Assembly (NCBI RefSeq): GCF_005771565.1
Contig: NZ_VAWA01000008.1
Location: 1-64,000 of the forward strand
DNA: 64,000 nt
Source of the DNA: Nesterenkonia sphaerica
GTDB taxonomy: Bacteria > Actinomycetota > Actinomycetes > Actinomycetales > Micrococcaceae
Reading direction: 5' to 3'
This document shows, one piece after another, positions 25,690 through 39,289 of the stretch. The notes under the pieces were generated by a model. The model had not been told where the DNA came from and searched no databases. It saw only the letters and a list, made by a program, of their open reading frames with translations. Made by a program: the position numbers and the translations under genes. Numbering within the stretch: position 1 is the stretch's first letter; every line of letters begins with the position of its first letter.

Positions 25690-25700
25690 TAGTCTAGCAA
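25690..25700 (+). repeat. attL core
   Basis: TAGTCTAGCAA at the left border is identical to 35852-35862 at the right border; flanking bases differ on both sides. It is next to the integrase 3' end, as expected for an attachment core. Confidence 0.75.
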
Positions 25701-25734
25701 ATGCGGAATATCGGCAAACGCCCAGGTCAGCGAC

Positions 25735-26862
25735 TTATCCACTCTCAGACCCCAACTCAATCCCAACATGAGGACTCAAAACCTGCCGCATGAGACCCGT
25801 TGCAGCGGCCCTAGTTGTGTCCTCCGCGTCGGGCCATAAATGGCTGTATGTGTTCAGCGTGATTGACGGTGACTTGTGCCCCAACTGTCTCTGAACTTTC
25901 ACGACATCCTCCCCCGCCGCAATGAGTCCAGACGCGTAGAAGTGCCTGAGGTCATGCAATCCGAACGGCTCGACATCGGCAGCCTTGAGCGTCTTCTGCC
26001 AGACATAGTTCACCGCGTCGGGCTTCGGTGGGTTCCCCCGGCTGCCCATGAAGAGCCAATCGCCGTTTATCCCGCTGGCGATGTGGACCGCCAACAACTC
26101 CATGAGGTCTTCTGGCGCGTAGATTGTCCGGTTGGAATTGTACTTCGGCGCCTTGATCCTCACACCACCACCGTTGGCCCGCTGCACCTGCCGATCAACC
26201 CTCAGCCGGCGCTCTAGGCTCCGCACATCCTGGACCTGCAGAGCAGCCGCCTCACCGCGCCTGAGACCCGCGAAGGCGCACACCGCCCACAGAGCCCGCC
26301 AGTGATCCGCGGAGGCGCTGAGGATCGCTGCGACGGTCTCCGCTGAGGGTATGTGCATCTCCTCATTGGCCTGCCGTGGCAGCTGGGTTCCCTCAAGCGG
26401 ATTGCTGGCGATATGCCGGTCACGGACGGCTCCGCGCATCACAGTGTTGACGTGGTGGAACGTGGTCTGAATTGTGGACGGGGCCAGCCGCTCTGACAGT
26501 CCCTTGATCCACTCCTCAACGTGAGTAGACCTGATCTTGCCCAGCGGCACCGAGGAGAATGTGCAAGTACGCAGGGACCGATCAGCGCCGCTCACTGTGG
26601 AGTCATCCCACAGCTGCCGAGCCCGGAAGCCCTGGTAGTACTCCCCCAACGTGATCTTGCCGTCGGCTGCATCAATATACGTCCCGGCTTTGACCTCATG
26701 GTGAGACCGGCGCTTGAAGTCCCGGGCCGCGTTGAAGTTGCGGAAAGTCTCCTGCCGGCGTTGGCCGTCCGCGTTGCGATAGGCGACCTCATACGACTTG
26801 CCACCGTCGGCACGCTCGACGGCGTAGATGCCGGGTTCGCGGGTCTTAGTTCTCTTGGTCAT
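25735..26862 (-). CDS. int: Tyrosine site-specific integrase of the satellite
   Basis: A 375-aa integrase. It has an N-terminal arm-binding region (about 1-65), a core-binding SAM-like domain (about 66-160) and a catalytic domain. Catalytic residues are all present: R201 in FAGLRRGE, K240 in APKYNSNR, H303 and R306 in HDLRH, H329 in LGHKS and the nucleophile Y339 in LNTYSHL. It should recombine the 11-base core with the host site between hflX and the methyltransferase. The stop is only 34 bases from attL. Its start overlaps the repressor gene by 17 bases, so the two are co-transcribed. Confidence 0.93.
   Translation of the reverse strand: MTKRTKTREPGIYAVERADGGKSYEVAYRNADGQRRQETFRNFNAARDFKRRSHHEVKAGTYIDAADGKITLGEYYQGFRARQLWDDSTVSGADRSLRTCTFSSVPLGKIRSTHVEEWIKGLSERLAPSTIQTTFHHVNTVMRGAVRDRHIASNPLEGTQLPRQANEEMHIPSAETVAAILSASADHWRALWAVCAFAGLRRGEAAALQVQDVRSLERRLRVDRQVQRANGGGVRIKAPKYNSNRTIYAPEDLMELLAVHIASGINGDWLFMGSRGNPPKPDAVNYVWQKTLKAADVEPFGLHDLRHFYASGLIAAGEDVVKVQRQLGHKSPSITLNTYSHLWPDAEDTTRAAATGLMRQVLSPHVGIELGSESG
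25751..25768 (+). repeat. Candidate integrase arm-type sites, left end
   Basis: CCCAACT (25751-25757) and CCCAACA (25762-25768) are spaced 11 bases apart inside the integrase 3' end, 50 bases from attL. The same motif recurs three times with helical spacing near attR. The match on both sides and the spacing suggest binding sites for the integrase N-terminal domain; this is inference. Confidence 0.5.
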
Positions 26863-27427
26863 CGCCAGGAAACTCCGGCTTGGTTTCGTGCATGCGCTGC
26901 GCGTTTCTGGCGAATTCCCCGATGTCTAGTTTCGTCATTCGACGTACTTGTGCAACGGCAGCCTCAAACGGCACCTGATTCTCGGTGGTCAATAGGAACT
27001 TGATCTTCTCCAAGTCCATGATTGTTAGTAGGTACCGCAGTCGAGCCACGGCGTCGGACCAACCACGCACAGCTAGATCCACGCGTTTTTTGAAGTTGAG
27101 CGCCTCTTGGCGAAGCGCCCAAAATTCACTTAGGTGTTGTGACGATTCTGTCTCGGAGATCATGTAGCCCACATCTGTGTTCAGCACTCTCGCCAGCGCT
27201 CGAGCTTCACCTAGCCGAACGGGGCGCGTTCCTTTTTCTATTCGCGAGATCGTTGCTTGATTGAAGTGCTCCCAGCCTTCAGAGACCATGCGCCGGGCCA
27301 GCTCACCTTGAGATAGGCCCTGATCCGTGCGCAGCCGGTTTACGGCCTCCCTGAATCGCATTTCCTCCAATTGGTCGCGAGAAAGGACGTGGCGAAGGGT
27401 CCCTGGCGCCTCTAGATCATCGGTCAT
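26846..27427 (-). CDS. XRE-family repressor of the satellite
   Basis: A 193-aa regulator from ATG 27427. The helix-turn-helix is near the N-terminus (MRFREAVNRLRTDQGLSQGE and FNQATISRIEKGTRPVRLGE, about 20-70). The C-terminal 110 aa are helical without a recognisable LexA/CI-type protease (no Ala-Gly plus Ser-Lys), so SOS cleavage is unlikely and release by a helper-phage protein, as in PICIs, is more plausible. The reading frame extends 12 codons upstream, but ATG 27427 fits a leaderless start: CATAAT ends 6 bases before it on this strand, with TTGAGA 18 bases further up. Confidence 0.85.
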   Translation of the reverse strand: MTDDLEAPGTLRHVLSRDQLEEMRFREAVNRLRTDQGLSQGELARRMVSEGWEHFNQATISRIEKGTRPVRLGEARALARVLNTDVGYMISETESSQHLSEFWALRQEALNFKKRVDLAVRGWSDAVARLRYLLTIMDLEKIKFLLTTENQVPFEAAVAQVRRMTKLDIGEFARNAQRMHETKPEFPGDDQEN

Positions 27428-27528
27428 AGGCCAATTATGCACATGGTGTTGCGCGATTCTCAATCGTCAGCGTATATTGGTCTTGTCAGTCACATACGAT
27501 TGACTTAGGCCAATCACAGGAGGATGAA
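27427..27528. promoter_or_regulatory. Divergent control region of the satellite (switch)
   Basis: The roughly 100 bases between repressor and AlpA-like gene hold an inverted repeat TCAATCGT (27460-27467) / ACGATTGA (27496-27503) and a direct repeat TAGGCCAAT (27427-27435 and 27506-27514), the latter next to both start codons. Leftward elements TTGAGA and CATAAT fit a leaderless repressor transcript. Rightward, TTGTCA (27483-27488) may be a -35. The repeats are candidates for repressor operators. Confidence 0.5.
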
Positions 27529-27756
27529 ATGGACACCGCCCCCGCCGAGCACAGCCCAACTCTGAAGCAAGATCAGTTGCGCACCATCGAGGAGGTTGCA
27601 GAGCAGATGAGGACGACGCCGAGCACGATTCGATACAAGCTGCAGACCGACCCGACGTTTCCGCGTGGATTCAAACTTTCTGTGAGAAGGCTATGGCGCC
27701 AGAGTTCAATTGACGCGTGGATTGAGTCCCAGATTGAAGCGCAGGAGGCCGCGTGA
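27529..27756 (+). CDS. AlpA/excisionase-like small DNA-binding protein
   Basis: A 75-aa protein with a MerR-like helix-turn-helix (IEEVAEQMRTTPSTIRYKL, about 20-38, and FKLSVRRLWRQSSIDAWIESQ), as in AlpA and Xis proteins of satellites and phages. First gene of the rightward operon, with AGGAGG 9 bases before the ATG. It may direct excision, activate the operon, or both; position and size favour these roles, the exact one is not shown by the sequence. Confidence 0.8.
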   Translation: MDTAPAEHSPTLKQDQLRTIEEVAEQMRTTPSTIRYKLQTDPTFPRGFKLSVRRLWRQSSIDAWIESQIEAQEAA

Positions 27757-28301
27757 AGACCTACAACTGCCAGACCTGCGGGCACCTGGTTCTACTGGAG
27801 CCGCGCGAAGTGGAAGAGATCGGCGCGTACTGCCTAGAACATCTCTTCTCAGAGGAGTTCCCCGCCCTCAATCAACTGGCCGAAAACGTGGCCGAGACAG
27901 AAGAACGGCCTGAGAATCCCCGCCAAGAGACTCCTCAGACCGCTCACACCGAAACCCATAAGAAAGGCTCCGTCATGAACAAGTCTACCCCCGAGCCCGC
28001 CGAGTTCGGACCCGATTACGTGGAAAACTGCCCTCAGCTCGACGATATGGAGCACGACTGCGACTCCACCCGTCTTGCTTCACAGATCAGCGTGTCAACG
28101 CAGGCGTGCGAGCGGATCTCCATCTTCCGCCTGCATGAGGTGTTCCAGCACGGTCACCAGGTCCACGCGCTGCGGCTGGAGATCGTGGACGAGATTCATC
28201 ACACCGCAGAAGTCACGCTCTATCCCCAGCAGCTGGTCACGATTGCGGAATGGCTCTCGGAGAAAGCGTCTGTGCTGACTCCCGCAGGTGGTGACGCGTG
28301 A
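27753..28301 (+). CDS. Satellite protein with N-terminal zinc-ribbon-like motif, unknown function
   Basis: A 182-aa protein from GTG 27753, overlapping the previous stop (GTGA). The N-terminus has NCQTCGHLV (CxxC) and a later Cys (AYC) in an acidic region; residues 50-75 are a charged linker. From MNKSTPEPAEFG (an internal ATG at 27975) the C-terminal half is a separate-looking alpha/beta domain (LHEVFQHGHQVHALRLEIVDEI, then YPQQLVTIAEWLSEKA). It could be two fused small proteins or have an internal start. I do not recognise the family. Confidence 0.65.
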   Translation: MKTYNCQTCGHLVLLEPREVEEIGAYCLEHLFSEEFPALNQLAENVAETEERPENPRQETPQTAHTETHKKGSVMNKSTPEPAEFGPDYVENCPQLDDMEHDCDSTRLASQISVSTQACERISIFRLHEVFQHGHQVHALRLEIVDEIHHTAEVTLYPQQLVTIAEWLSEKASVLTPAGGDA

Positions 28302-28540
28302 TGACGTATCTAATCCACTATTACCGACGTAGTGATCTTCCAGCCGCCATCGTCAACGGTACCGCCGTGCCTTTCCTCTGCGGTGACCAAGGATTCCCCA
28401 GGGATATTCCGATGGCTGCGGGCGAGCCCTCTATTCCTGCCGATTCGCAGGACTGCCAGCCTTGTCACGACCTTTACGAGGCTGGGCGCAAGTTGGCTAG
28501 AAACGGCACGGGACGTCGCTTGCAGACCGCCGAGGGCTGA
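28301..28540 (+). CDS. Small Cys-rich protein, DUF3039-like zinc-binding fold
   Basis: A 79-aa protein starting at ATG 28301 (or GTG 28298), overlapping the previous stop. VNGTAVPFLCGDQ, then DCQPCHDLYEAG, resembles the CG...CPxC pattern of actinobacterial DUF3039 zinc-ribbon proteins, which are frequent in actinophages. Function unknown. It is one of three small Cys-containing genes around the replication gene. Confidence 0.65.
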   Translation: MTYLIHYYRRSDLPAAIVNGTAVPFLCGDQGFPRDIPMAAGEPSIPADSQDCQPCHDLYEAGRKLARNGTGRRLQTAEG

Positions 28541-28555
28541 GGAGGGAGGGCACCA

Positions 28556-29248
28556 ATGGACTCGAGGTTCCCCACACATTATCTGCATGACAGGCGAGTG
28601 ATGAGGCTGACCCCTCCCACGTTCCGCACCTTCGTCATGGCGACGGCCTGGAGTGTGTCCAATATGACGGATGGAGCTATCCCGACTGCTGATCTGCCAT
28701 TGGTGCCCTTCTCCTCGCCTGAGCATGCAACCGAGTTAGTCAACGCTGGGTTATGGGCGGAGTCAGAGGACGGCTACCAGATTGTGGAGTACGCCAAACA
28801 CCAAACCTCAGCCGCTCAGGTTGAGCACGCACTTGAAGCCCGCCGAGAAGCTGACCGCAAGAGGCAGGCGAAGAAGAGGGAACGGGACTCTTCAGATAGT
28901 GAGTCACGGGGACAGTCACGTGATGGTCACGTGACATCTGAAGGCAAGGAAAGGCAAGGAAAGGCAAGGAAAGGCAAGGCTTTAGAAGAAGAGGATTACA
29001 AGACTTCTGAAGATTCAATTGATCTTGAAACGGGAGAGATCTCTGAACCTGATTGGGACTCACATATCAACGCTGCGTGGCACGATCCCCAACGCATCAT
29101 CGGCCTGTACTCCAAGCTTCCCGACGATCATCCTCGACGCCCTGAGACGCGGGCACGCTATTACGAATTGATGGGTCGCCCTGACCCCCTCAAGGCCCAA
29201 CCCCCGAACGACATCATGCAGAAGCTCAGAGAAATGAGGGCTGCCTGA
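28556..29248 (+). CDS. Satellite replication initiator-like protein containing the origin
   Basis: A 230-aa protein. The N-terminal winged-helix-like domain (MDSRFPTHYLHDRRVMRL...FVMATAWSVSNMTDGAI, to about 85) is typical of replication initiation or replisome-organiser proteins of actinophages. A charged, low-complexity linker follows (about 95-150), whose DNA holds palindromes, four 10-base repeats and an AT-rich tract (see origin). The C-terminus (SHINAAWHDPQRIIGLYSKLPDDHP) may contact host helicase loaders, by analogy with lambda O. GGAGGGAGGG precedes the ATG. No primase, helicase or polymerase is encoded, so host machinery must do elongation. Confidence 0.78.
   Translation: MDSRFPTHYLHDRRVMRLTPPTFRTFVMATAWSVSNMTDGAIPTADLPLVPFSSPEHATELVNAGLWAESEDGYQIVEYAKHQTSAAQVEHALEARREADRKRQAKKRERDSSDSESRGQSRDGHVTSEGKERQGKARKGKALEEEDYKTSEDSIDLETGEISEPDWDSHINAAWHDPQRIIGLYSKLPDDHPRRPETRARYYELMGRPDPLKAQPPNDIMQKLREMRAA
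28903..29030. other. Putative replication origin of the satellite (iterons plus AT-rich tract)
   Basis: Inside the initiator gene: GTCACG occurs at 28903, 28915 and 28926, the last two being parts of GTCACGTGA copies, the last a full palindrome GTCACGTGAC (28926-28935). Next come four head-to-tail 10-base repeats, AAGGCAAGGA three times then AAGGCAAGGC (28941-28980). Directly after lies a tract of about 30% G+C (28981-29030, 15 of 50 bases by eye) in a much richer background. Iterons followed by an unwinding element within the linker of the initiator gene is the layout of the lambda origin in gene O. Confidence 0.68.
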
Positions 29249-29460
29249 TGTGCCCCACCTGTGACCTCGCCCCCTGTGCCTGTCAGTACGCCGCCACCCT
29301 CACCCACCGCCCCCAAGGCCCCTGCCTGCACTGTGTGGCCTTGGAGGCCCTCTCCCTGCCCCAACCCCACCGTGGCCCCGATGACACCTCATGCCCCTGC
29401 CCCGCCTGCTACTCCCTACGGGCCGGTACCTGGGGCGACTCATGGACGGAGAGCACCTGA
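29248..29460 (+). CDS. Cys-rich small satellite protein, multiple zinc-finger-like motifs
   Basis: A 70-aa protein with CPTCDLAPCAC near the N-terminus, CLHC in the middle and CPCPAC near the C-terminus: ten Cys in three clusters, which suggests one or two bound zinc ions. It starts in a TGATG overlap with the initiator gene and ends overlapping the next gene in the same way. No family recognised; a DNA- or RNA-binding role or interference with helper or host is possible. Confidence 0.6.
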   Translation: MCPTCDLAPCACQYAATLTHRPQGPCLHCVALEALSLPQPHRGPDDTSCPCPACYSLRAGTWGDSWTEST

Positions 29461-29615
29461 TGTTTAAGCGACCGAAGATCACCGCCGCTGACCTCACCGA
29501 GGAAGACCCGCTCTACTCAAGCCTGCCGACTGACGACGAACTGCAAGACCTCAACCGTCGAATCGACGCGCTCGACGAACGATTGGATCGACTCAAGGAG
29601 CTGATGCAGCGGTGA
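29460..29615 (+). CDS. Short coiled-coil satellite protein
   Basis: A 51-aa protein starting at ATG 29460 in a TGATG overlap. The C-terminal half, LQDLNRRIDALDERLDRLKE, is a strong heptad coiled coil. The longer frame from 29391 runs in the previous gene and is unlikely. Its place just before HNH and large terminase is where a small terminase would be expected; small terminases do oligomerise by helices, but 51 aa is too short for a normal one, so I leave the function open. Confidence 0.55.
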   Translation: MFKRPKITAADLTEEDPLYSSLPTDDELQDLNRRIDALDERLDRLKELMQR

Positions 29616-30064
29616 AGATCTGCATTCAATGTGGAGAACTTTGTCAACGAAGTTATTGTGACGAACATTTTCCAGAAGTTCGCAAAGCTCAACGAGGTGA
29701 ACGCAAGCCTGGAGACCGCACAGCGCAGGGATACGACGCTAGGTGGGCTCGCCTCTCCCGTAAGGCTCGGAGGATTCAGCCGTTCTGTTCCGACTGCGGT
29801 TCCGAGGAGGATCTACAGCTCGACCACACCCCGCTGACGTGGGAGCGGTGGCGCCAACGTAAGCCGATCCGACTTGAGCACACCGGCGGCGTCGTCTGCG
29901 GTGACTGCAACCGCGCACGCGGCGATGCACGGGCACCAGGGGGACGGGGGTACAGCGGACCCGCAGATCAGGCCGGGCCGGTAGGCCAAGAGCCGATTAC
30001 TTACTGCAATACATTCTCAATAGGGGGTGATTCTGGTGGTGGCAGCGGGTCCGAAGGGGCGTAG
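29612..30064 (+). CDS. HNH endonuclease of the packaging module
   Basis: A 150-aa protein from GTG 29612 (GTGA overlap). N-terminal CIQCGELCQRSYCDEHF is a zinc-ribbon-like part; the HNH core is GYDARWARLSRKARRIQPFC, CSDCGSEEDLQLDHTPL, then VVCGDCNRARG. HNH proteins of this type sit next to the terminase in cos-type HK97-like phages and are required for cos cleavage. The Gly/Ser-rich last 25 residues overlap the terminase start region, so the natural end of the folded domain is near residue 110. Confidence 0.85.
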   Translation: MKICIQCGELCQRSYCDEHFPEVRKAQRGERKPGDRTAQGYDARWARLSRKARRIQPFCSDCGSEEDLQLDHTPLTWERWRQRKPIRLEHTGGVVCGDCNRARGDARAPGGRGYSGPADQAGPVGQEPITYCNTFSIGGDSGGGSGSEGA

Positions 30065-31505
30065 AGACGAATCTCCACTGCCGTGGAAACCTCGATCTCA
30101 GGGCGCTGACCAGTTCGCCCTGTTCTGCAAGAAATATGTCAAGACGCCGAAGGGTGCCGGGGCGCGTAAACCGTTCGAGGTCCGCGATTGGCAACGTCAA
30201 TTAGTGGCCTCACTGCTGGAGGATCGCCCGAAGATCGCGCTATGGGTAATCGCACGCGGGAACGGCAAGTCCACACTGGTGGCGGCCTTGGCGCTGCATC
30301 ACGTCATCATGTCCGGCATCGAGGGCGCACGGGCTGTGATCGTTGCGCAGGATGAGCGCAGTGCTGGCCGGTTGCTGGCGACGGCGGCGCGCATGGTGGA
30401 ACTGGACGATGAACTGTCGTCCCGGTGCCGAGTGTTTCGTGACCGGATCGAGTACGCCCCGACTAATTCTGTGATTGTGGCCCTGCCTGGTGAGGCTCAC
30501 CGTATCGAGGGTGAGGACGCCAGTTTGGCCATTGCCGACGAGCTGGGAGTCATGCGCCGGGAAGCATATGAGGCTCTGCTGCACTCCACTGGTAAGCGGG
30601 CTGAGTCTCAACTGCTGGCAATCGGTACACCCTCGCCACCGTCCTGGCGGGAAGCCTCACCGATGCTGGATCTCGTTTTAGAGGGCAGGGCGAACGATGC
30701 CGAAGACTTCAAGCTGGTGGAGTTCGGCGGCGACATTGCCCACCCGGTGGACTGCCGTCACTGCTGGGCTGCTGCGAACCCTGGGCTCGGTGATCTGGTC
30801 TCTGAGGACCATATGCGGGCCGCGTTGCCCCCGCGTTCGAGGGAATCGGAGTTCCGCCGCGCACGCCTAGCGCAATGGGTAGAACACGACGATTCAAGTT
30901 TCCTGCCACAGGGTCTTTGGGAGTCCGCGAATACTGGCGAGCTGATAGAGGACGGCACCGAGGTCATCGTGAGCCTGGACGGTTCCTATTCAGGCGACGC
31001 CACGGCGCTGCTGGTGGCGACCGTCTCCAAGACTCCTCACGTGGACAAGGTGGATCTGTGGGAGCCCCCGGACGGGCAAGAGGAATACCGAATCCCGATT
31101 CACGAAGTTGAGGACGCGATCAGGGCAGCGTGCCGTCGCTGGAAGGTGATCGAGGTTGTGTGTGATCCGTTCAGGTTCGCCCGGTCCATGCAGATCCTCG
31201 AATCTGAGGGAATCCCCATTGTGGAGTTCAACCAATCACCGTCACGGCTGACCCCGGCCACCCGCGACACCTTAGAGAGCATCCTGGCCGGGGAACTGAC
31301 CCATTCAGGCGATCCAGATCTAGCCCGCCACGTCACTAACGCCACCGTTATCGAGGAGGCCCGTGGAATCCGACTAGCGAAAGAAAAACGAGGATCTAAG
31401 CGGCGCATTGACCTAGCCGCGTGCCTCATCATGGCGCACTCCCGCGCCACCTGGCGAGCAAGCCGGAAGAAAAAACGACGCCGAGCAAGGAGCTTTAGAG
31501 CATGA
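30036..31505 (+). CDS. terL: Large terminase subunit
   Basis: About 489 aa. ATPase: VIARGNGKSTLVAALAL (Walker A variant RGNGKST, about 70), Walker B ASLAIADELGVM; nuclease: VSLDGSYSGDATALL, VVCDPFRFA and RRIDLAACLIMAH with the expected acidic residues. It pumps DNA into the prohead and cuts it. I use GTG 30036 because AGGGGGTGA (30022-30030) nearly matches the 16S anti-Shine-Dalgarno; GTG 30027 and 30039 are alternatives. Its TGA overlaps the portal ATG (ATGA). Confidence 0.9.
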   Translation: MVAAGPKGRRDESPLPWKPRSQGADQFALFCKKYVKTPKGAGARKPFEVRDWQRQLVASLLEDRPKIALWVIARGNGKSTLVAALALHHVIMSGIEGARAVIVAQDERSAGRLLATAARMVELDDELSSRCRVFRDRIEYAPTNSVIVALPGEAHRIEGEDASLAIADELGVMRREAYEALLHSTGKRAESQLLAIGTPSPPSWREASPMLDLVLEGRANDAEDFKLVEFGGDIAHPVDCRHCWAAANPGLGDLVSEDHMRAALPPRSRESEFRRARLAQWVEHDDSSFLPQGLWESANTGELIEDGTEVIVSLDGSYSGDATALLVATVSKTPHVDKVDLWEPPDGQEEYRIPIHEVEDAIRAACRRWKVIEVVCDPFRFARSMQILESEGIPIVEFNQSPSRLTPATRDTLESILAGELTHSGDPDLARHVTNATVIEEARGIRLAKEKRGSKRRIDLAACLIMAHSRATWRASRKKKRRRARSFRA

Positions 31506-32806
31506 GCAAGACAGATACCCTTCAATCACTGATCCAGACCATCGACGGACGGCAGGTTCACCTAGACCAGTTGGATCGCTTCTATGCAGGCAATCCACCG
31601 CTGTCATTCCTCAGCCCCGAGGCCCGCGAAGCCCTGGGCAACAGGTTTGGGCGCATGGCATCGAACTTCTGCCGTCTCACCGTGACCAGCATCTCGGAAC
31701 GGCTGCGGATAACCGGGTTCACCCGCGACGGTCAGCCCGACCCGGCACTGTGGCAGGACTGGACTAGGAACGATCTTGACCAGCTTGCCGGCACTCTGCA
31801 CCGTGAGGCGCTGACCCTGGGAACCGCTTACTGCATCGTATGGGCAGACGCCTTCGGGCAGCCGAGCATCAGCGTTGAGAGCGCACACCAGATGACTGCA
31901 CTGCGTGACCCTGGCACACGCTCCATCGTCGCTGCTGCTAAACGCTGGAACACTGCTACGGGCTCCGAAGCGGTTCTATATGGTCCGGACACCATCACCC
32001 GGTTCAAGTCGGACTCCCAGAACGCCACAGCAGGCAGTCAGTACCGCATCACCGAGACGATCGACAACCCGCTGGGAGTGGTGCCGGTGGTGGAGTTCCG
32101 CAATTCAGACCGGCTCTTGGATGAAGGCGTGAGTGAGCTTCGGGACGTGATCCCGTTGCAAGACGCTCTCAATAAGCTGCTGAGCGATATGCTGGTCGGC
32201 TCGGAGTACTTCGCCCGGCCCCGACGCTGGGCAACCGGCATCGAGCTTGAGGAAGACGAAGACGGCGACGCGGAAAACCCATTCCCAGAATCCACTCGGA
32301 TGTTGATAGCGGAAGGCGACACCGCGAAGTTCGGACAACTGCCGGCGTCCGACCTAGGCAGCTATGACACCGCGATTCGCAGCATCACTTCGCAAATCAT
32401 GGCGGTCTCCAGTTTGCCCGCGCACTATACCGGCGTGGTCGCAAACCAACCGCCCAATGCCGACGGTCTCAGGGCTGCTGAAGCCTCTCTCACCGCCCGT
32501 GTGGAGCAACGTCAACACACCTTCGGGAGGAGCTGGGAAAAGGTGGCAGGACTGGCGCACGCAATCCGCACCAATACTGACCCGCTGGCCGCAGAGATCA
32601 CAGTCACCTGGGCTGACCCGGCTACCCGTTCGGTTGCGCAGGAGGCCGATGCAGTGGTGAAACTCTTCCAAGCCGGTCTGCTTCCGGCCACGGCAGCGCT
32701 GGAACGTCTCGGCTATTCGGAAGACCAGATCCAGCGTATCCGTGACGCACGCCGCGCTGAAGCCCTCGACGGTGCCGGCACTGATCTTGAGGCGTTGCTG
32801 TCGTGA
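31502..32806 (+). CDS. Portal protein, SPP1 gp6-like
   Basis: A 434-aa portal. LDQLDRFYAGNPPLSFLSPE, RMASNFCRLTVTSISERLRITGF and, further on, the PLGVVPVVEFRNSD and RDVIPLQDALNKLLSDML segments are typical of SPP1-type (Gp6-like) portals. It forms the dodecameric vertex through which DNA enters and to which the head-completion proteins bind. Length is close to that of actinophage members of the family. It overlaps the next gene by 4 bases. Confidence 0.9.
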   Translation: MSKTDTLQSLIQTIDGRQVHLDQLDRFYAGNPPLSFLSPEAREALGNRFGRMASNFCRLTVTSISERLRITGFTRDGQPDPALWQDWTRNDLDQLAGTLHREALTLGTAYCIVWADAFGQPSISVESAHQMTALRDPGTRSIVAAAKRWNTATGSEAVLYGPDTITRFKSDSQNATAGSQYRITETIDNPLGVVPVVEFRNSDRLLDEGVSELRDVIPLQDALNKLLSDMLVGSEYFARPRRWATGIELEEDEDGDAENPFPESTRMLIAEGDTAKFGQLPASDLGSYDTAIRSITSQIMAVSSLPAHYTGVVANQPPNADGLRAAEASLTARVEQRQHTFGRSWEKVAGLAHAIRTNTDPLAAEITVTWADPATRSVAQEADAVVKLFQAGLLPATAALERLGYSEDQIQRIRDARRAEALDGAGTDLEALLS

Positions 32807-33345
32807 GTATCCACGACACTCTCACGCGGCTCTCTGACTCCGCACGGAGCCGGCTGGAGGCCCTGGCACGGCGGCTGGAGGCCGGGGAACTTGATTGGGA
32901 GGAGTTCCACGCCCTCGCCACTACGGAGGCCGCACGCAGGTCTTCGGCGGCATCGTCGCTGGCGGTCCTCGCCGTCGCTGCGGAGCTGTCCCGGCTGACT
33001 GGCACACCTAGGTCAACATCAACGGCGCGCGCGGGGTTCGACCTGGAGGAGGCAGCCTATGACGCGATCACCGAGCAGACCAGCACTCAATCCTTCGACC
33101 TGGACCCCGTGGCAGCAATGGGGATCGCAGGGGCCGCAATTGTCATGGCGGCCTATCAGAGCACCACTCACCGCGCCATGACTGACCAGGGAGTGAGTTT
33201 CTACCGGCGCGAAGTGGAACCCGACGCCTGCGAAATCTGCCGGGATATGGCCGACATCGTTCTACCAACCACACACCAACAGTGGCATCACAAAGGTTGT
33301 CGCTGCGTAGCCGTACCCGTCTCAGAGAATGGAGCAGACCAGTGA
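32803..33345 (+). CDS. MuF-like minor head protein
   Basis: A 180-aa protein. The C-terminal motif ACEICRDMADIV...HHKGCRCVAVPV is the CxxC...HxxCRC pattern of SPP1 gp7/Mu gpF-like minor capsid proteins. The N-terminal half is helical (DTLTRLSDSARSRLEALARR). Position straight after the portal also fits. It probably joins the prohead at the portal vertex. GTG start overlapping the portal stop. Confidence 0.8.
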   Translation: MSIHDTLTRLSDSARSRLEALARRLEAGELDWEEFHALATTEAARRSSAASSLAVLAVAAELSRLTGTPRSTSTARAGFDLEEAAYDAITEQTSTQSFDLDPVAAMGIAGAAIVMAAYQSTTHRAMTDQGVSFYRREVEPDACEICRDMADIVLPTTHQQWHHKGCRCVAVPVSENGADQ

Positions 33346-33764
33346 CCGAAGAACAGACCACCGAGACCACCGAAGAGCAGGACCTGGGACATTCGGTCCC
33401 ACCTGAACCGGAGCAGGAGCAGGAGCAGGCCGAAGAGGACACCTTCCCCCGCGAATATGTCCAGAAGCTCAGGGATGAGAACGCCAAGTTCAGGCAGCGG
33501 GCGCAACGCTCCGATGAGCTGGCCCACCGGCTGCACACCGCCCTTGTCGCTGCTGATGGGCGATTAGCGGACCCGACAGACCTGGAGTTCACCGAAGAGC
33601 ACCTGGAGGACGCAGAATCGCTCTCAGAGGCCATTGGAGAGCTTCTGCGGTCCAAGCCTCACTTGGCCGCGCGTCGTCCCCGTGGCGACGTTGGGCAGGG
33701 TGCCAGCGGTGGCAGTGGCGGTAACGTTGACCTCGCCGGTCTACTTCGGGCAGGAGCGAGCTAA
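33342..33764 (+). CDS. Scaffolding protein
   Basis: A 140-aa acidic, helical protein from GTG 33342 (GTGA overlap). The Glu/Gln-rich start is followed by a coiled coil (REYVQKLRDENAKFRQRAQRSDELAHRL, about 45-70) and a Gly-rich flexible end (GQGASGGSGGNVD). These are the features of scaffold proteins encoded just before the capsid gene in HK97-like phages. No separate prohead protease is seen, so the scaffold is presumably expelled intact or cut by a host protease. Confidence 0.78.
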   Translation: MTEEQTTETTEEQDLGHSVPPEPEQEQEQAEEDTFPREYVQKLRDENAKFRQRAQRSDELAHRLHTALVAADGRLADPTDLEFTEEHLEDAESLSEAIGELLRSKPHLAARRPRGDVGQGASGGSGGNVDLAGLLRAGAS

Positions 33765-33958
33765 TGAGCTTCGATATCAAAGACCTGCACCCCGCCGCCC
33801 GTGATGACGTCCTGGACGCCCTGAACGCTATTTACGCCGCGATGGATCGCCACGGGATCGAGCGCGTTCCAGTGATCCCCGGCGAAATTCTCTCTGACCA
33901 CCTCGACAGGATTGTGGAGGAGTTCCGCCGCAAATTGGCAGCAACGGAACTGGACTGA
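33764..33958 (+). CDS. Small satellite protein between scaffold and capsid
   Basis: A 64-aa protein starting in a TAATG overlap with the scaffold gene. It is predicted to be mostly helical (LHPAARDDVLDALNAIYAAMD, then LSDHLDRIVEEFRRKLAATELD). Nothing diagnostic; possibly a capsid accessory or assembly factor by position. Confidence 0.6.
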   Translation: MSFDIKDLHPAARDDVLDALNAIYAAMDRHGIERVPVIPGEILSDHLDRIVEEFRRKLAATELD

Positions 33959-33976
33959 TAACAGTTCTCAATAAGC

Positions 33977-34065
33977 TGGTATAATGGGAGGGTCGGGCCT
34001 GGTGTCCGGCCCTCTCTATTGCTCCTGGCGGGCTGAGGCAGAACAGCAGGCGTCCAGAACTGGAC
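33977..34065 (+). promoter_or_regulatory. Extended -10 promoter and RNA hairpins before the capsid gene
   Basis: TGGTATAAT (33977-33985) is a full extended -10 element with no good -35. It is followed by a 9-bp stem, GAGGGTCGG (33988-33996) with CCGGCCCTC (34006-34014, one G-T pair), and by a small hairpin GTCCAG-AA-CTGGAC (34052-34065). No T run follows. It is the only substantial gap in the rightward operon (138 bases) and probably boosts or separates capsid expression. Confidence 0.55.
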
Positions 34066-34096
34066 ACCTCAACCTCTACCGCTAAGGACAATTCCA

Positions 34097-34936
34097 ATGG
34101 CTTTAAACACCACTGATGCCCCGGAGCTGCTGCACGAGCAGGTCAGCTCCCTACTTATCCAGCCGCTTGAGACCGCTTCAATCGTGCTGGCAGCTGGCCC
34201 CCGAATTTTCGACACCGCGTCACCGCTGCGTATCCCTAAACTGGTCGGCTCCGGCACCCCCGCATGGGTAGGCGAATCCGAGCTGATCCCAGACAATTAC
34301 ACAGCTGAGTTCGATGAAGTCCGGTTGATGCCTGAGTCACGCAAGAGCGTGAAAATTATCACCCGCTACAGCAACGAGATGGCGCGGCAGTCCGTGGTTG
34401 GACTCGATGCTGTACTTCGCGCACGACTGGTCAACGACGTCAGCTCCATGCTGGACGATTCCTTCCTCAACGGTGACGGCGCAGGCGACTCGGTGACCGG
34501 TATTTTCAACCAGCCCGGTACACAGAGCGCACCGCTGGACCTCACCAGCGCTGATACCTTCCTCGACGCTCTGGCAGTCACCACCGCCGCCGAAGTCACC
34601 CCTAATCGGTGGTTCCTCAACGCCGGCGACTTCATCACGGTGAGGAAGCTCAAAGATGATAATCAGCGGTATCTCCTCGAGTCAGATCTGACCCGCGATG
34701 CTACATATCGTCTCTTCGGAGTCCCGGTGACCGTGAGCAACAAGGTTCCTGCCGGGAAGGCTCTGCTGGCCGACATCTCACAGGTGGCCGTCGCACGGGA
34801 CACAAACCCCCAAATCAAAATCCTGGACCAGCGCTATGCCGAATACGATCAGCAGGCGATCAGGGTTACCGCACGGTTCGATCTGGGTCTTCTGCATCCT
34901 GAAGGCGTCGTGGTCCTGGAGACCCCGGCAGGCTGA
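34097..34936 (+). CDS. Major capsid protein, HK97 fold
   Basis: A 279-aa capsid protein. Recognisable parts: LLIQPLETASIVLAAGPRIF, IPKLVGSGTPAWVGESELIP (E-loop side), SNEMARQSVVGLDAVLRARL (spine helix) and VTVSNKVPAG...ARFDLGLLHPEGVVVLE (C-terminal A/P domain). It lacks the long N-terminal delta domain cut off in HK97 itself, in line with the separate scaffold gene. AAGGA lies before the ATG. Confidence 0.9.
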   Translation: MALNTTDAPELLHEQVSSLLIQPLETASIVLAAGPRIFDTASPLRIPKLVGSGTPAWVGESELIPDNYTAEFDEVRLMPESRKSVKIITRYSNEMARQSVVGLDAVLRARLVNDVSSMLDDSFLNGDGAGDSVTGIFNQPGTQSAPLDLTSADTFLDALAVTTAAEVTPNRWFLNAGDFITVRKLKDDNQRYLLESDLTRDATYRLFGVPVTVSNKVPAGKALLADISQVAVARDTNPQIKILDQRYAEYDQQAIRVTARFDLGLLHPEGVVVLETPAG

Positions 34937-34938
34937 TA

Positions 34939-35262
34939 ATGGACTACGTATCCCCGCCCGATGGTGAGGACATCGCGCAGTTCCTCGGTCAAGGAGACGA
35001 TCCCGCCGTCGTCGCCCTGGCCGAGGAGCACGCGCCTATCGTCCGAGCTATGGCGCAGGCATACACCCGTGGCAAAGGCTTTCAAGGCGGGCAAGTGGCA
35101 GAAGACATTCACGCCGTCCTCGTAGCCGCCACTGCGCGCCTTGTAGCCAACCCTGAGCAGATGAGTTGGGCAGCGGGTTCCGCGCGCGTCTCAGGCGCAT
35201 TTAGAGGGTGGACGCTGGCCGAGACGTTCGTGCTCAATCGCTACCGGAAAAGAGCGAAGTGA
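34939..35262 (+). CDS. Head-tail adaptor (head completion protein)
   Basis: A 107-aa helical protein following the capsid gene by 2 bases. VARAMAQAYTRGKGF-like sequence (IVRAMAQAYTRGKGFQGGQVAEDIHAVLVAATARLVANPEQ) matches the gp6/gp15-type adaptor ring that binds the portal. GAFRGWTLAETFVLNRYRKR at the C-terminus is typical of the actinophage version. It prepares the head for tail joining. Confidence 0.8.
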   Translation: MDYVSPPDGEDIAQFLGQGDDPAVVALAEEHAPIVRAMAQAYTRGKGFQGGQVAEDIHAVLVAATARLVANPEQMSWAAGSARVSGAFRGWTLAETFVLNRYRKRAK

Positions 35263-35597
35263 TGCTGCTGCATGACCGTGTGACCGTCCATATCCCCGGT
35301 GGAGAAACAGGCGAATACGACGATCTTGGAATGCCGATAACTACCCCGCCCACCACTAAGGTGCTCCCGGCTCAAGTGGACCCGGCGCGCACTGCTGACG
35401 GGGACGACGCAAACTCAGGGCAGCTCATCTCCCGGTACCGTGTGATGCTCAAAGCACCGCATGGCTTCGACCCGACCGGCGTAGATGAAGTGACCTGGAG
35501 AGGGAAGACAATCCGCGTTGACGGCCGCATTCAGCCGCAGATGATACGCGGCAGAATAAGTCATTATGAATTCACATCAGAACGGGTTAGCGGCTGA
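35262..35597 (+). CDS. Head closure (stopper) protein
   Basis: A 111-aa beta-rich protein starting in a TGATG overlap with the adaptor gene. VTVHIPGGETGEYDDLGMP, VKAP-like RVMLKAPHGFDPTGVDEVTWRGK and IRVDGRIQP are the strand pattern of SPP1 gp16/HK97 gp7-type stoppers, which close the filled head and bind the tail terminator. It is the last gene of the element: no tail terminator or major tail protein follows, so partner tails must come from elsewhere. Confidence 0.78.
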   Translation: MLLHDRVTVHIPGGETGEYDDLGMPITTPPTTKVLPAQVDPARTADGDDANSGQLISRYRVMLKAPHGFDPTGVDEVTWRGKTIRVDGRIQPQMIRGRISHYEFTSERVSG

Positions 35598-35650
35598 TAC
35601 AATTGAAGTGGTCCCGGAGGGCCGATTGGTGGAAGAACTGAATATGCGGA

Positions 35651-35716
35651 CTGTACCCCTGACTGAGACGGCACCCGACTTGCAAGCGGCTCCCGTAAGG
35701 CCAGGGGTACAGTTTT
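35651..35716 (+). terminator. Hairpin with T run at the end of the head operon
   Basis: CTGTACCCCTG (35651-35661) pairs with CAGGGGTACAG (35702-35712), an 11-bp perfect stem followed directly by TTTT. The 40-base loop can fold further (ACGG with CCGT, CCG with CGG). It is 54 bases past the last head gene and would stop the rightward operon before it reaches the host methyltransferase. Confidence 0.65.
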
Positions 35717-35717
35717 G

Positions 35718-35745
35718 CCCAACACACCCCAACAAAAACCCAACA
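35718..35745 (+). repeat. Candidate integrase arm-type sites, right end
   Basis: CCCAACA occurs at 35718-35724, 35728-35734 and 35739-35745, spaced 10 and 11 bases apart, about 107 bases from attR. The same motif lies twice near attL in the same orientation. The rest of 35598-35851 has no gene that I can support. Confidence 0.55.
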
Positions 35746-35851
35746 CGAAATGCGTGTGAGCCCGTAATCTGCCGGTCATCGTCGGAGAGAAAAACCCCGG
35801 AATCATGCGGAAGTAGGCAGTCTCCATACACGCTCATAGGCGGGTGCATAG

Positions 35852-35862
35852 TAGTCTAGCAA
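35852..35862 (+). repeat. attR core
   Basis: TAGTCTAGCAA, identical to attL. It touches the GTG/ATG start of the methyltransferase (35863/35866), and TAGTCT within it is well placed as a -10 box for a leaderless mRNA of that gene. Confidence 0.75.
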
Positions 35863-35865
35863 GTG

Positions 35866-38077: not shown

Positions 38078-38092
38078 ATGAGGGGTGTTCTT

Positions 38093-39289
38093 ATGAGTTC
38101 GCGCGTCGAGTGGCCCTCGCTGGAATATGAAACCCACCGCTGGATCCCCGCCTCTCACGCTTCCTGGGGTCCACGCGCTGAGTTCGATGCAGCCGGGACC
38201 AGCTACAAGTCCGCTGTGGTGCCCAAGATTGCCGGAATCTCACCGTCGGTGAGTCCTGAGGCCCGGCAGGCCGCAGAGACCGCAGAGACAGAACTCACCC
38301 GTTTTGACGCTGAGCTGGGATCCCGAGTCGCAGCGTTCGCACCAGTGCTACTGCGATCTGAGGCGTCGTCGTCCTCCCAGATCGAGAACCTCACCGCCTC
38401 GGCCAGAGCGATCCTTAGCGCGGAACTCGGGCTACACCGAAGCCACAACGCTGATCAAATCGCTGCAAACACCTACGCCATGCGGGCTGCCCTGGACTTG
38501 GCCACCGAACTCTCGGTGGAATCAGTGAAGCGACTTCACGCCGTACTCATGGAGTCTCAACCCCGCCACACCCCCGGACGATGGCGCGAAGAGCCTGTGT
38601 GGATCGGTGTCCGCTCGGACTCACCGGTGGGCGCGACCTACGTCGCCCCGCACCAGAAGCACATCGCCGAGCTGATGGCTGATCTCGCTGAGTTCGTCAA
38701 CGACCTCACCGTGCCGCCTCTCATCTCCGTGGCAGTCGGGCACGCGCAGTTCGAGACTATCCACCCTTTCAGCGACGGCAACGGGCGTGTCGGCCGTGCT
38801 TTGAGCCAAGCGATGCTGCGCCACCGCGGAGTGACCCGCAATGTGGCAGTGCCAGTCTCAGCGGGACTGCTGAGCGATATCGAGGGCTATCACACGGCAC
38901 TGGACGCTTACCGCAACGGGGAGGTCGCCCCCATCATCCACGCCTTCGCTGATGCCTCGCTGCGCGCAGTTCACAATGCTCGTCAGCTCGTTGAGGAGAT
39001 CGATCAGATTCGCCAGAGCTGGGATCAACGCCTGAGCGCACGACGACACTCCAACGCGTGGAAGCTCCTCGATGTCCTCGCCCGTTGTCCCGTGCTCAAC
39101 AGCGCTGCCGCTGCTGAAGAGCTTGGGGTCAAGCAGCCCAACGTTTATCCGCCGATGAAAGCGCTTGTCGACGCAGGCATCGTGAAATCCAAGGCGGAGC
39201 ACAAGCTCGGACCATTCTGGCGAAGTGATGAAGTCCTGGCCGCAGTCGACGCGTTCGCTGAGCGAGCCGGCCGACGTTCAGGCGTGTGA
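38093..39289 (+). CDS. Fic-domain protein (AMPylase family) with winged-helix C-terminus
   Basis: A 398-aa protein. The Fic motif HPFSDGNGRVGR is complete (about residue 224). An inhibitory helix motif, SSQIEN (SxxxEN, about residue 92), stands N-terminal to the Fic fold, so it is a class II, self-inhibited Fic enzyme. The N-terminus (WPSLEYETHRWIP) is the Fic_N region and the C-terminal LNSAAAAEELGVKQPNVYPPMKALVDAG is a winged helix. The target is unknown. It is a stand-alone gene in an AT-rich setting between housekeeping genes, so it is probably accessory. Alternative start: ATG 38078. Confidence 0.85.
   Translation: MSSRVEWPSLEYETHRWIPASHASWGPRAEFDAAGTSYKSAVVPKIAGISPSVSPEARQAAETAETELTRFDAELGSRVAAFAPVLLRSEASSSSQIENLTASARAILSAELGLHRSHNADQIAANTYAMRAALDLATELSVESVKRLHAVLMESQPRHTPGRWREEPVWIGVRSDSPVGATYVAPHQKHIAELMADLAEFVNDLTVPPLISVAVGHAQFETIHPFSDGNGRVGRALSQAMLRHRGVTRNVAVPVSAGLLSDIEGYHTALDAYRNGEVAPIIHAFADASLRAVHNARQLVEEIDQIRQSWDQRLSARRHSNAWKLLDVLARCPVLNSAAAAEELGVKQPNVYPPMKALVDAGIVKSKAEHKLGPFWRSDEVLAAVDAFAERAGRRSGV

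Follow-up and report, generated by a model that had tools for sequence, protein, structure and literature searches.

A probable phage satellite of Nesterenkonia sphaerica encodes its own head, has no recognisable tail gene and has relatives across actinobacterial genomes

Contig NZ_VAWA01000008.1 of Nesterenkonia sphaerica carries a compact mobile element with a set of phage head genes. The element, here called the island, lies at positions 25690-35862 of the 64,000-nucleotide stretch that was analysed (positions 1 to 64,000 of the contig, referred to as the window), and is a bounded integrated element of 10.16 kb. It is very probably an integrated phage satellite that would build and fill its own head and borrow the tail of a helper phage. 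The comparisons support its description as a complete head-building element with no recognisable tail gene, apparently of a distinct actinobacterial lineage. The island does not represent a one-off deletion, because the same head block recurs tail-less at different sites with different integrases.

The island begins on the left with genes for an integrase and a helix-turn-helix (HTH) repressor on the minus strand, followed by plus-strand genes from an AlpA/excisionase-like gene onward (Table 1). Many of the reading frames share a few bases with the next one, and all of the head reading frames are open. The genes named in the original prediction were recovered at about the positions it gave, most of them by Pfam and PHROGs matches, and the strong family matches of the portal bear out its assignment to the SPP1 type. 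The block stops after the adaptor and stopper with no tail gene recognised, as expected from the earlier description of a module that ends where tail proteins would begin. Pfam and PHROGs scans of the open reading frames (ORFs) of the window found no tail, lysis or small terminase (TerS) family in the island, in agreement with the earlier claim that it has no tail or lysis gene.

The MuF-like minor head protein has weak profile matches to phrog_193 ('head maturation protease', 0.0016) and phrog_4728 ('head morphogenesis', 0.0055). Its earlier naming as MuF-like is weakly backed by these profiles and better backed by six invariant residues in 47 aligned sequences of the family (C143, C146, H163, G165, C166 and C168) and by an hhalign match to residues 158-200 of gp6 of Arthrobacter phage Seahorse (E 3.2e-6, probability 88). 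The adaptor matched no Pfam or PHROGs family. A PDB profile search with its family profile finds gp9, the adaptor of mycobacteriophage Douge, at 2e-6. An AlphaFold model of the adaptor (pLDDT, the predicted local distance difference test score, 88.6) has the same Douge chain (connector, 8zdj) as its top Foldseek match (E 5.5e-3, probability 1.00), followed by the SPP1 connector (E 0.19) and, further down with weak E-values, neck chains of Bxb1, HK97 gp6 and SaPI1. The structure search gave no PDB and no viral-library match at E 0.001 or better, and it is mainly the Douge gp9 profile match that identifies the protein. The gap between scaffold and capsid (33764-34097 in the window; L041:10030-10416 is another example) differs between members in both length and content and could serve as a site for accessory genes.

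Copies of an 11-base core (TAGTCTAGCAA) start at 25690 and 35852, 10,162 bases apart, confirming the border repeat of the original prediction. Of 2000 shuffles, 3.9% gave the two border segments a shared repeat of 11 bases or longer, so that the repeat taken alone is modest evidence, and the borders are settled by comparison with congeners. The island sits between hflX and a methyltransferase gene, which starts at 35863 and is the first gene past the right attachment site (attR). The methyltransferase gene was detected in all 30 genomes of the genus set, and in 29 of 29 congeners (own genome excluded) hflX is no more than 1.5 kb away; the insertion site is therefore unoccupied in each of these. 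At the congener locus L062 the sequence continues through the core, which has a single mismatch there. The right flanks of L059 and L060 match that of the island over the stretch compared, beyond the start of the methyltransferase gene. Relatives at this attachment site with a full tail and lysis module, which the original prediction had named as the mark of a deleted prophage, were sought in the same 29 congeners and none was found. The right arm, between the stopper gene and attR, may be an attP arm or a cos (cohesive-end) site.

The shared block comprises HNH, large terminase (TerL), portal, MuF-like protein, scaffold, capsid, adaptor and stopper, and it was found at eight further genome loci. 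These are L003 in Nesterenkonia natronophila, found through its portal (a 90% relative), and L040-L046, which are seven of 18 regions fetched. In L042 and L043 the contig end cuts the portal, so that HNH, TerL and the left half are not seen, and the MuF-like gene of L042-L044 is recognised by profile only. ORFs downstream of the head block at ten of these and the order-level loci (ten scanned with Pfam, one from each locus, and ten with PHROGs) gave no tail family; some matched host-type families (acetyltransferase, T2SSF, AFG1 ATPase, MFS and GAF) and the rest are unmatched. The suggestion that the island is possibly a distinct lineage is supported, with the block recurring as a unit in an actinobacterial family. 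The other eleven regions fetched match in part, nine through the portal (some with part of TerL) and two, L054 and L055, through the capsid and integrase. In L054 and L055 a distant capsid gene (about 28-32% identical) adjoins integrase and primase/helicase-like genes. Ten ORFs scanned there, five in each, had no terminase, portal or tail match, and the TerL and portal of the window also found no match. These two may possibly be islands with the capsid protein as their sole head gene.

The element is patchily distributed. The capsid was detected at E 1e-10 or better in five of the 30 genus genomes, including its own, and one of the five is just 32% alike. Portal matches, mostly distant, were found in 26 of 395 genomes of the family. 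At E 1e-30 there were eight positives among 396 genomes of the order and five among 396 of the phylum; the genome of the island is in both, one other is shared, and two of the five phylum-level positives are weak matches. The Tsukamurella tyrosinosolvens plasmid NZ_LR134447 encodes a capsid 45.5% identical to that of the island, and in its annotation the last gene of the head block is that of a head-tail adaptor, with another integrase after it. A search for islands with the same gene order and no tail genes, as suggested with the original prediction, thus returned genome loci, a plasmid and the IMG/VR contigs described below.

The related elements differ in their insertion sites. L003 adjoins a gene that reads as a phosphatase and has a 22-base repeat with copies 10,640 bases apart. 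A lipoprotein-like ORF (L003:14753-15169) lies between its stopper gene and attR, inside the island, and is a possible cargo gene. L044 also has a 22-base repeat, with copies 11,089 bases apart, and the 3' end of a tRNA-Val gene forms the left copy. The tyrosine integrase of L041 shares 44% identity with that of the window, and L041 also has a 12-base repeat and a T2SSF neighbour (Pfam); from its translation, we take the gene that it interrupts to be of the cpaF/tadA type. L045 presumably interrupts a cpaF/tadA-type gene as well, and its recombinase, judged by eye, is taken to be a serine recombinase. Different recombinases are thus found with L041 and L045, both of which lie in a putative cpaF/tadA-type gene of a pilus cluster.

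G119 C14 (L046, identical to L167) is a contig of 9,862 bases. Its two ends share 77 bases, so that it is probably a circle of 9,785 bases, and none of its ORFs was recognised as an integrase gene. It is a possible capsid-forming plasmid satellite. G582 C1 (L180/L181, at about 76.8-96.4 kb) contains two identical copies arranged head to tail, each unit being 9,752 bases long, which represent either a double insertion or the assembly of excised copies. At 30-35 kb the same contig has a tape-measure gene and another capsid gene, and this region is a possible helper prophage. Element sizes taken from repeats or circularity are 9.75 kb (the tandem pair), 9.79 kb (the circle), 10.5, 10.6 and 11.1 kb. 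The ratio of nonsynonymous to synonymous substitution rates (dN/dS) of six head genes was 0.03-0.46 in 36 pairwise comparisons among four elements, and by this measure the head genes are under purifying selection.

A scan of IMG/VR with the profile of the major capsid protein identified 145 relatives, the best 80 of which were analysed and include the G119 contig as L167. Together with nine order-level regions (eight sites, the G582 tandem being in two pieces), these make up 89 loci. Among the eight family profiles, those of the portal, scaffold and capsid matched in all 89 loci, TerL and adaptor in 87 each, HNH in 80, the MuF-like protein in 66 and the stopper in 41. The detected head genes are all on one strand and in the order of the island in 77 of 79 IMG/VR loci (L167 excluded); the two exceptions are L151, where the capsid is on the opposite strand from the rest, and L090, which has a stray stopper match. 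The sequence after the last head gene is shorter than 700 bases in 57 of these 79 loci, 700-2,000 bases in 14 and at least 2,000 bases in eight. A PHROGs scan of 58 ORFs of at least 80 amino acids past the last head gene gave no tail family among the best 25 of 39 families; those listed include integrases, primases, helicases and host-type genes.

The contigs are also short. In the capsid scan, 63 of the 80 are 8-13.5 kb long, with a median of 10.0 kb, and one is at least 20 kb. A control scan with the portal of the tailed phage Seahorse gave 35 of 80 contigs of at least 20 kb; the control query was a single protein and the family queries were alignments, with the best 80 taken from each. Alignment scans with the adaptor, scaffold and portal found 101, 132 and 230 relatives, and the best 80 of each included one, one and no contigs of at least 20 kb, respectively. 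Five contigs across the four scans exceed 15 kb. L142 ends soon past the adaptor, L338 and L355 run into an integrase, and L347 and L352 run into ORFs that matched no tail family (ten were scanned over the contigs longer than 15 kb).

The remaining genes of the islands were surveyed through 105 non-head ORFs from 12 islands, for which the best 25 of 27 Pfam families and the best 25 of 80 PHROGs were listed. Among the Pfam families listed there is no tail, lysis, TerS or protease family; the same scan did recover the portal and TerL of one island that had been left in the set. The listed PHROGs likewise include no tail or TerS family. A PADLOC scan for defence genes matched only mad1, in three of the 105 ORFs.

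The head genes appear to be remote from those of tailed phages. Among the matches listed from 50,697 phage records (the best 40 of 287 and the best 30 of 341 records), the top-ranked full-length match of the capsid is 28% identical, and partial matches reach 35% over one third of the protein. The adaptor and stopper had no tblastn match in isolated-phage records at E 0.01. A quick capsid tree separates 97 family rows from 10 outgroup rows by one branch (support 93, not starred); the outgroup branches are long, and two of the outgroup rows, L054 and L055, are possibly not tailed phages. The portal of the island shares 37% identity with those of Arthrobacter phages. The Seahorse group (MH910041) shares the order terminase, portal, protease/MuF, scaffold, capsid, adaptor and stopper, and its gp6 shares the MuF motif. 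Unlike the island, Seahorse runs on into tail genes and has a TerS, and its 406-residue gp6 is annotated as a protease. In profile comparisons with Seahorse the capsid, scaffold and stopper of the island had no match, and the adaptor had a weak one (probability 6%).

The capsid protein has 279 amino acids and no N-terminal extension, and the annotated mature capsid peptide of phiC31 has 281. Related capsids in seven annotated records are encoded as proteins of about 390 to 445 amino acids, and in six of these records the preceding gene is annotated as a protease. The only protease-type match in the window is the weak phrog_193 match of the MuF-like protein. With a capsid of mature length and no clear protease or TerS found, the head of the island seems to be assembled on a separate scaffold without proteolysis.

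The definition of capsid-forming phage-inducible chromosomal islands (cf-PICIs) followed here is that of PMC10690885. cf-PICIs such as EcCIEDL933 encode their own capsid, portal, connectors, TerL and HNH and use helper tails (PMC10690885, PMC11389934), and the published cf-PICI capsids fall into three radiations (PMC11389934). The island has the capsid with portal, the connectors and HNH with TerL, and no tail genes were found in it; the family scans found no TerS. Features of PICIs in general (a list taken partly from PMC6092414) are also present, namely its own att site, an integrase, a repressor, an AlpA/xis-like regulator, a replication initiator and small size. The island resembles cf-PICIs in being integrated, in encoding these proteins itself and presumably in depending on a helper for its tail, and differs from them in having a separate scaffold, a MuF-like protein and a capsid of mature length, with no TerS or clear protease found. 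The original prediction had placed it among the cf-PICIs. The head genes without a tail agree with this; TerS was not found and the protease is doubtful, and such a filing is tentative. The gene content suggests that the island works like a cf-PICI.

Related candidates have been described from Actinomycetota. PICIs were predicted there earlier (PMC10690885), and a satellite nature has been suspected for small actinobacterial prophages (PMC10023795). Mycobacterium has candidate PICIs, among them phiRv1 and phiRv2, with an integrase and a capsid and in some cases terminase and scaffold (PMC10654092). They resemble the present elements in this pairing, in their tRNA or other sites and in their tyrosine or serine integrases, and differ in having been called on integrase and capsid alone; the island is set beside them by description only. 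The Streptomyces phage satellites Mulch and Flayer, also compared by description, are likewise actinobacterial with their own head and packaging genes, and their portal is said to resemble that of the predicted Actinomycetota PICIs. Unlike the island, they ride virulent helpers and have terminal repeats, and one has tail components (PMC10690885). Novelty is below the earlier claim, because actinobacterial PICI candidates with a capsid, some with scaffold and terminase, are already published (PMC10654092, PMC10690885). No published description of this head lineage was found in the literature searched, which covered journals only in part. The new part is a coherent scaffold-based head lineage.

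Infection by a tailed phage, or its induction, would relieve the repressor. The integrase and AlpA-like factor would then excise the island, and the initiator would start its replication. TerL and HNH would cleave the DNA, probably at cos-type ends, and package it into a small head built on the scaffold. The adaptor and stopper would then serve to attach a tail that the helper phage supplies. We infer excision, replication and packaging from the gene content, and tail capture from the conserved adaptor together with the lack of recognised tail genes. A wider proposal has about an even chance of being right: one tail-less satellite capsid clade would extend across Actinomycetota, apart from the phages searched, and would have long kept a protease-free, scaffold-built head while swapping integrases (tyrosine and serine), sites and replication modules. 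It would be a head-encoding lineage of independent origin, with a rank near that of a phage family, and at least one member may be a small circular plasmid.

A single deletion that stripped a prophage of its tail and lysis genes, leaving the island as the decayed remnant, is very unlikely. The likeness of the portal of the island to those of tailed Arthrobacter phages, which have the same head order with tail genes next, would fit such an origin, as would the many cryptic prophages reported in actinobacterial genomes (PMC10023795). However, many divergent elements at different sites and with different integrases have the same end point, the head reading frames of the window are all open, head genes are under apparent purifying selection, the top-ranked full-length phage capsid match listed is distant, and the relatives include a tandem pair and a probable circle. 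The deleted-prophage reading was rejected on the recurrence of the tail-less end point. A phage-derived head operon in a chromosome, with no lysis gene, could also be a gene-transfer-agent-like or domesticated cluster that serves the host, but the integrase, the att repeats and a site unoccupied in every congener examined are marks of a mobile element. The patchy presence of the capsid in the genus and the tandem duplication point the same way, making host service extremely improbable.

Two other alternatives keep the element mobile. A tail-less autonomous virus or capsid-borne plasmid would enter cells without a borrowed tail, and the island does have its own initiator and packaging genes, with one relative a probable circle without a recognised integrase. 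In known phages, proteins of the adaptor and stopper type serve to join the tail. The adaptor is kept in 87 of the 89 loci and the stopper often, and there is no entry or lysis family among those listed, so that this alternative is quite improbable. Another possibility is a PICI whose capsid genes mainly interfere with or remodel helper heads and do not form a head of their own. Some PICIs carry single capsid homologues (PMC6092414), and in L054 and L055 a capsid gene accompanies an integrase gene, with no match to a terminase, portal or tail family in the ten ORFs scanned. In the island, however, TerL, HNH, portal, scaffold and connectors occur as a conserved set that interference alone would not require, which makes it a very improbable explanation.

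The preferred reading, an integrated satellite that fills its own head and takes a helper tail, also has several observations that weigh against it. Many of the dS values behind the dN/dS ratios are above 1 or saturated. TerS was found neither in the window nor among the families listed for the 105 non-head ORFs of 12 islands, and a diverged TerS could have escaped family scans. A tail match could likewise be hidden outside the families listed (25 of 27, of 39 and of 80). The stopper profile had no match in 48 of the 89 loci, so either the head-tail interface may vary among members or the profile misses the stopper. The ends of IMG/VR contigs come from database trimming or assembly, and some of the contigs are just 4 kb long. 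The genome of the island has no PF10145 tape-measure match and no second PF05065 capsid, and judged by these two markers a helper would come from outside. The step from capsid to tail is proposed from gene content.

The left half of the island carries the control and replication genes. The original prediction had described an initiator with an origin; the initiator is confirmed by its PHROGs match, and the origin is a possible one, the 10-base-spaced direct repeats lying in a lysine-rich coding stretch of the initiator gene. A gene for a Fic-domain protein (PF02661, 1.1e-17) lies outside the island, to its right, at 38078-39289 of the window.

Table 1. Features of the island, with window positions and the matches or other grounds for each assignment
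Feature	Position	Strand	Basis
Left attachment site (attL) core, 11-base direct repeat	25690..25700	none	repeat; site unoccupied in congeners
Tyrosine integrase	25735..26862	-	PF00589 8.3e-21; phrog_1 1.4e-59; 78% identity to L003 integrase
HTH repressor, divergent	26846..27463	-	PF13560 2.7e-9; phrog_8, phrog_3
AlpA/excisionase-like regulator	27529..27756	+	phrog_66 1.6e-6; Pfam AlpA under cut-off
Small ORF, no family (Pfam/PHROGs)	27753..28301	+	
Small ORF, weakly DUF3039-like	28298..28540	+	PF11238 1.6e-4, under cut-off
Replication initiator	28556..29248	+	phrog_2447 4.1e-21
Iteron-like direct repeats, 10-base spacing, within initiator gene	28941..28979	none	possible origin, putative function
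Small ORF, no family	29248..29460	+	conserved in L003 and L041
Small ORF	29391..29615	+	conserved in L003; weak phrog_736 0.0064
HNH endonuclease	29612..30064	+	phrog_144 5.4e-8
Large terminase (TerL)	30027..31505	+	phrog_9 2.2e-82; PF20441, PF03354
Portal, SPP1 gp6 type	31502..32806	+	PF05133 1.3e-38; phrog_104 1.4e-108
MuF-like minor head protein	32803..33345	+	invariant C/H residues; hhalign to Seahorse gp6; weak PHROGs
Scaffold	33282..33764	+	phrog_4708 3.1e-5; phrog_233 4.6e-5; family profile matched in 89/89 loci searched
Small ORF between scaffold and capsid	33764..33958	+	no family at 0.01 or better
Major capsid protein, 279 amino acids, HK97 fold	34097..34936	+	PF05065 1.3e-36; phrog_10 4.1e-46
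Head-tail adaptor	34939..35262	+	PDB profile match to Douge gp9; predicted structure, Foldseek
Stopper / head closure protein Hc1; start probably near 35238	35208..35597	+	phrog_501 8.7e-10
Right arm, probably non-coding; 12-base inverted repeat inside	35598..35851	none	partly conserved with L003
attR core, 11-base direct repeat	35852..35862	none	repeat

Capsid-forming satellites have been worked out experimentally in other bacteria. The elements described here add a bounded actinobacterial lineage with many members, sharp boundaries and a different head set, with a scaffold and a MuF-like protein and with no TerS or clear protease found. With this lineage, the way in which actinobacterial satellites move can be tested directly, and a near-minimal head becomes available for structural work. 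It also suggests that many of the prophage remnants of roughly 10 kb in actinobacteria may be intact satellites.

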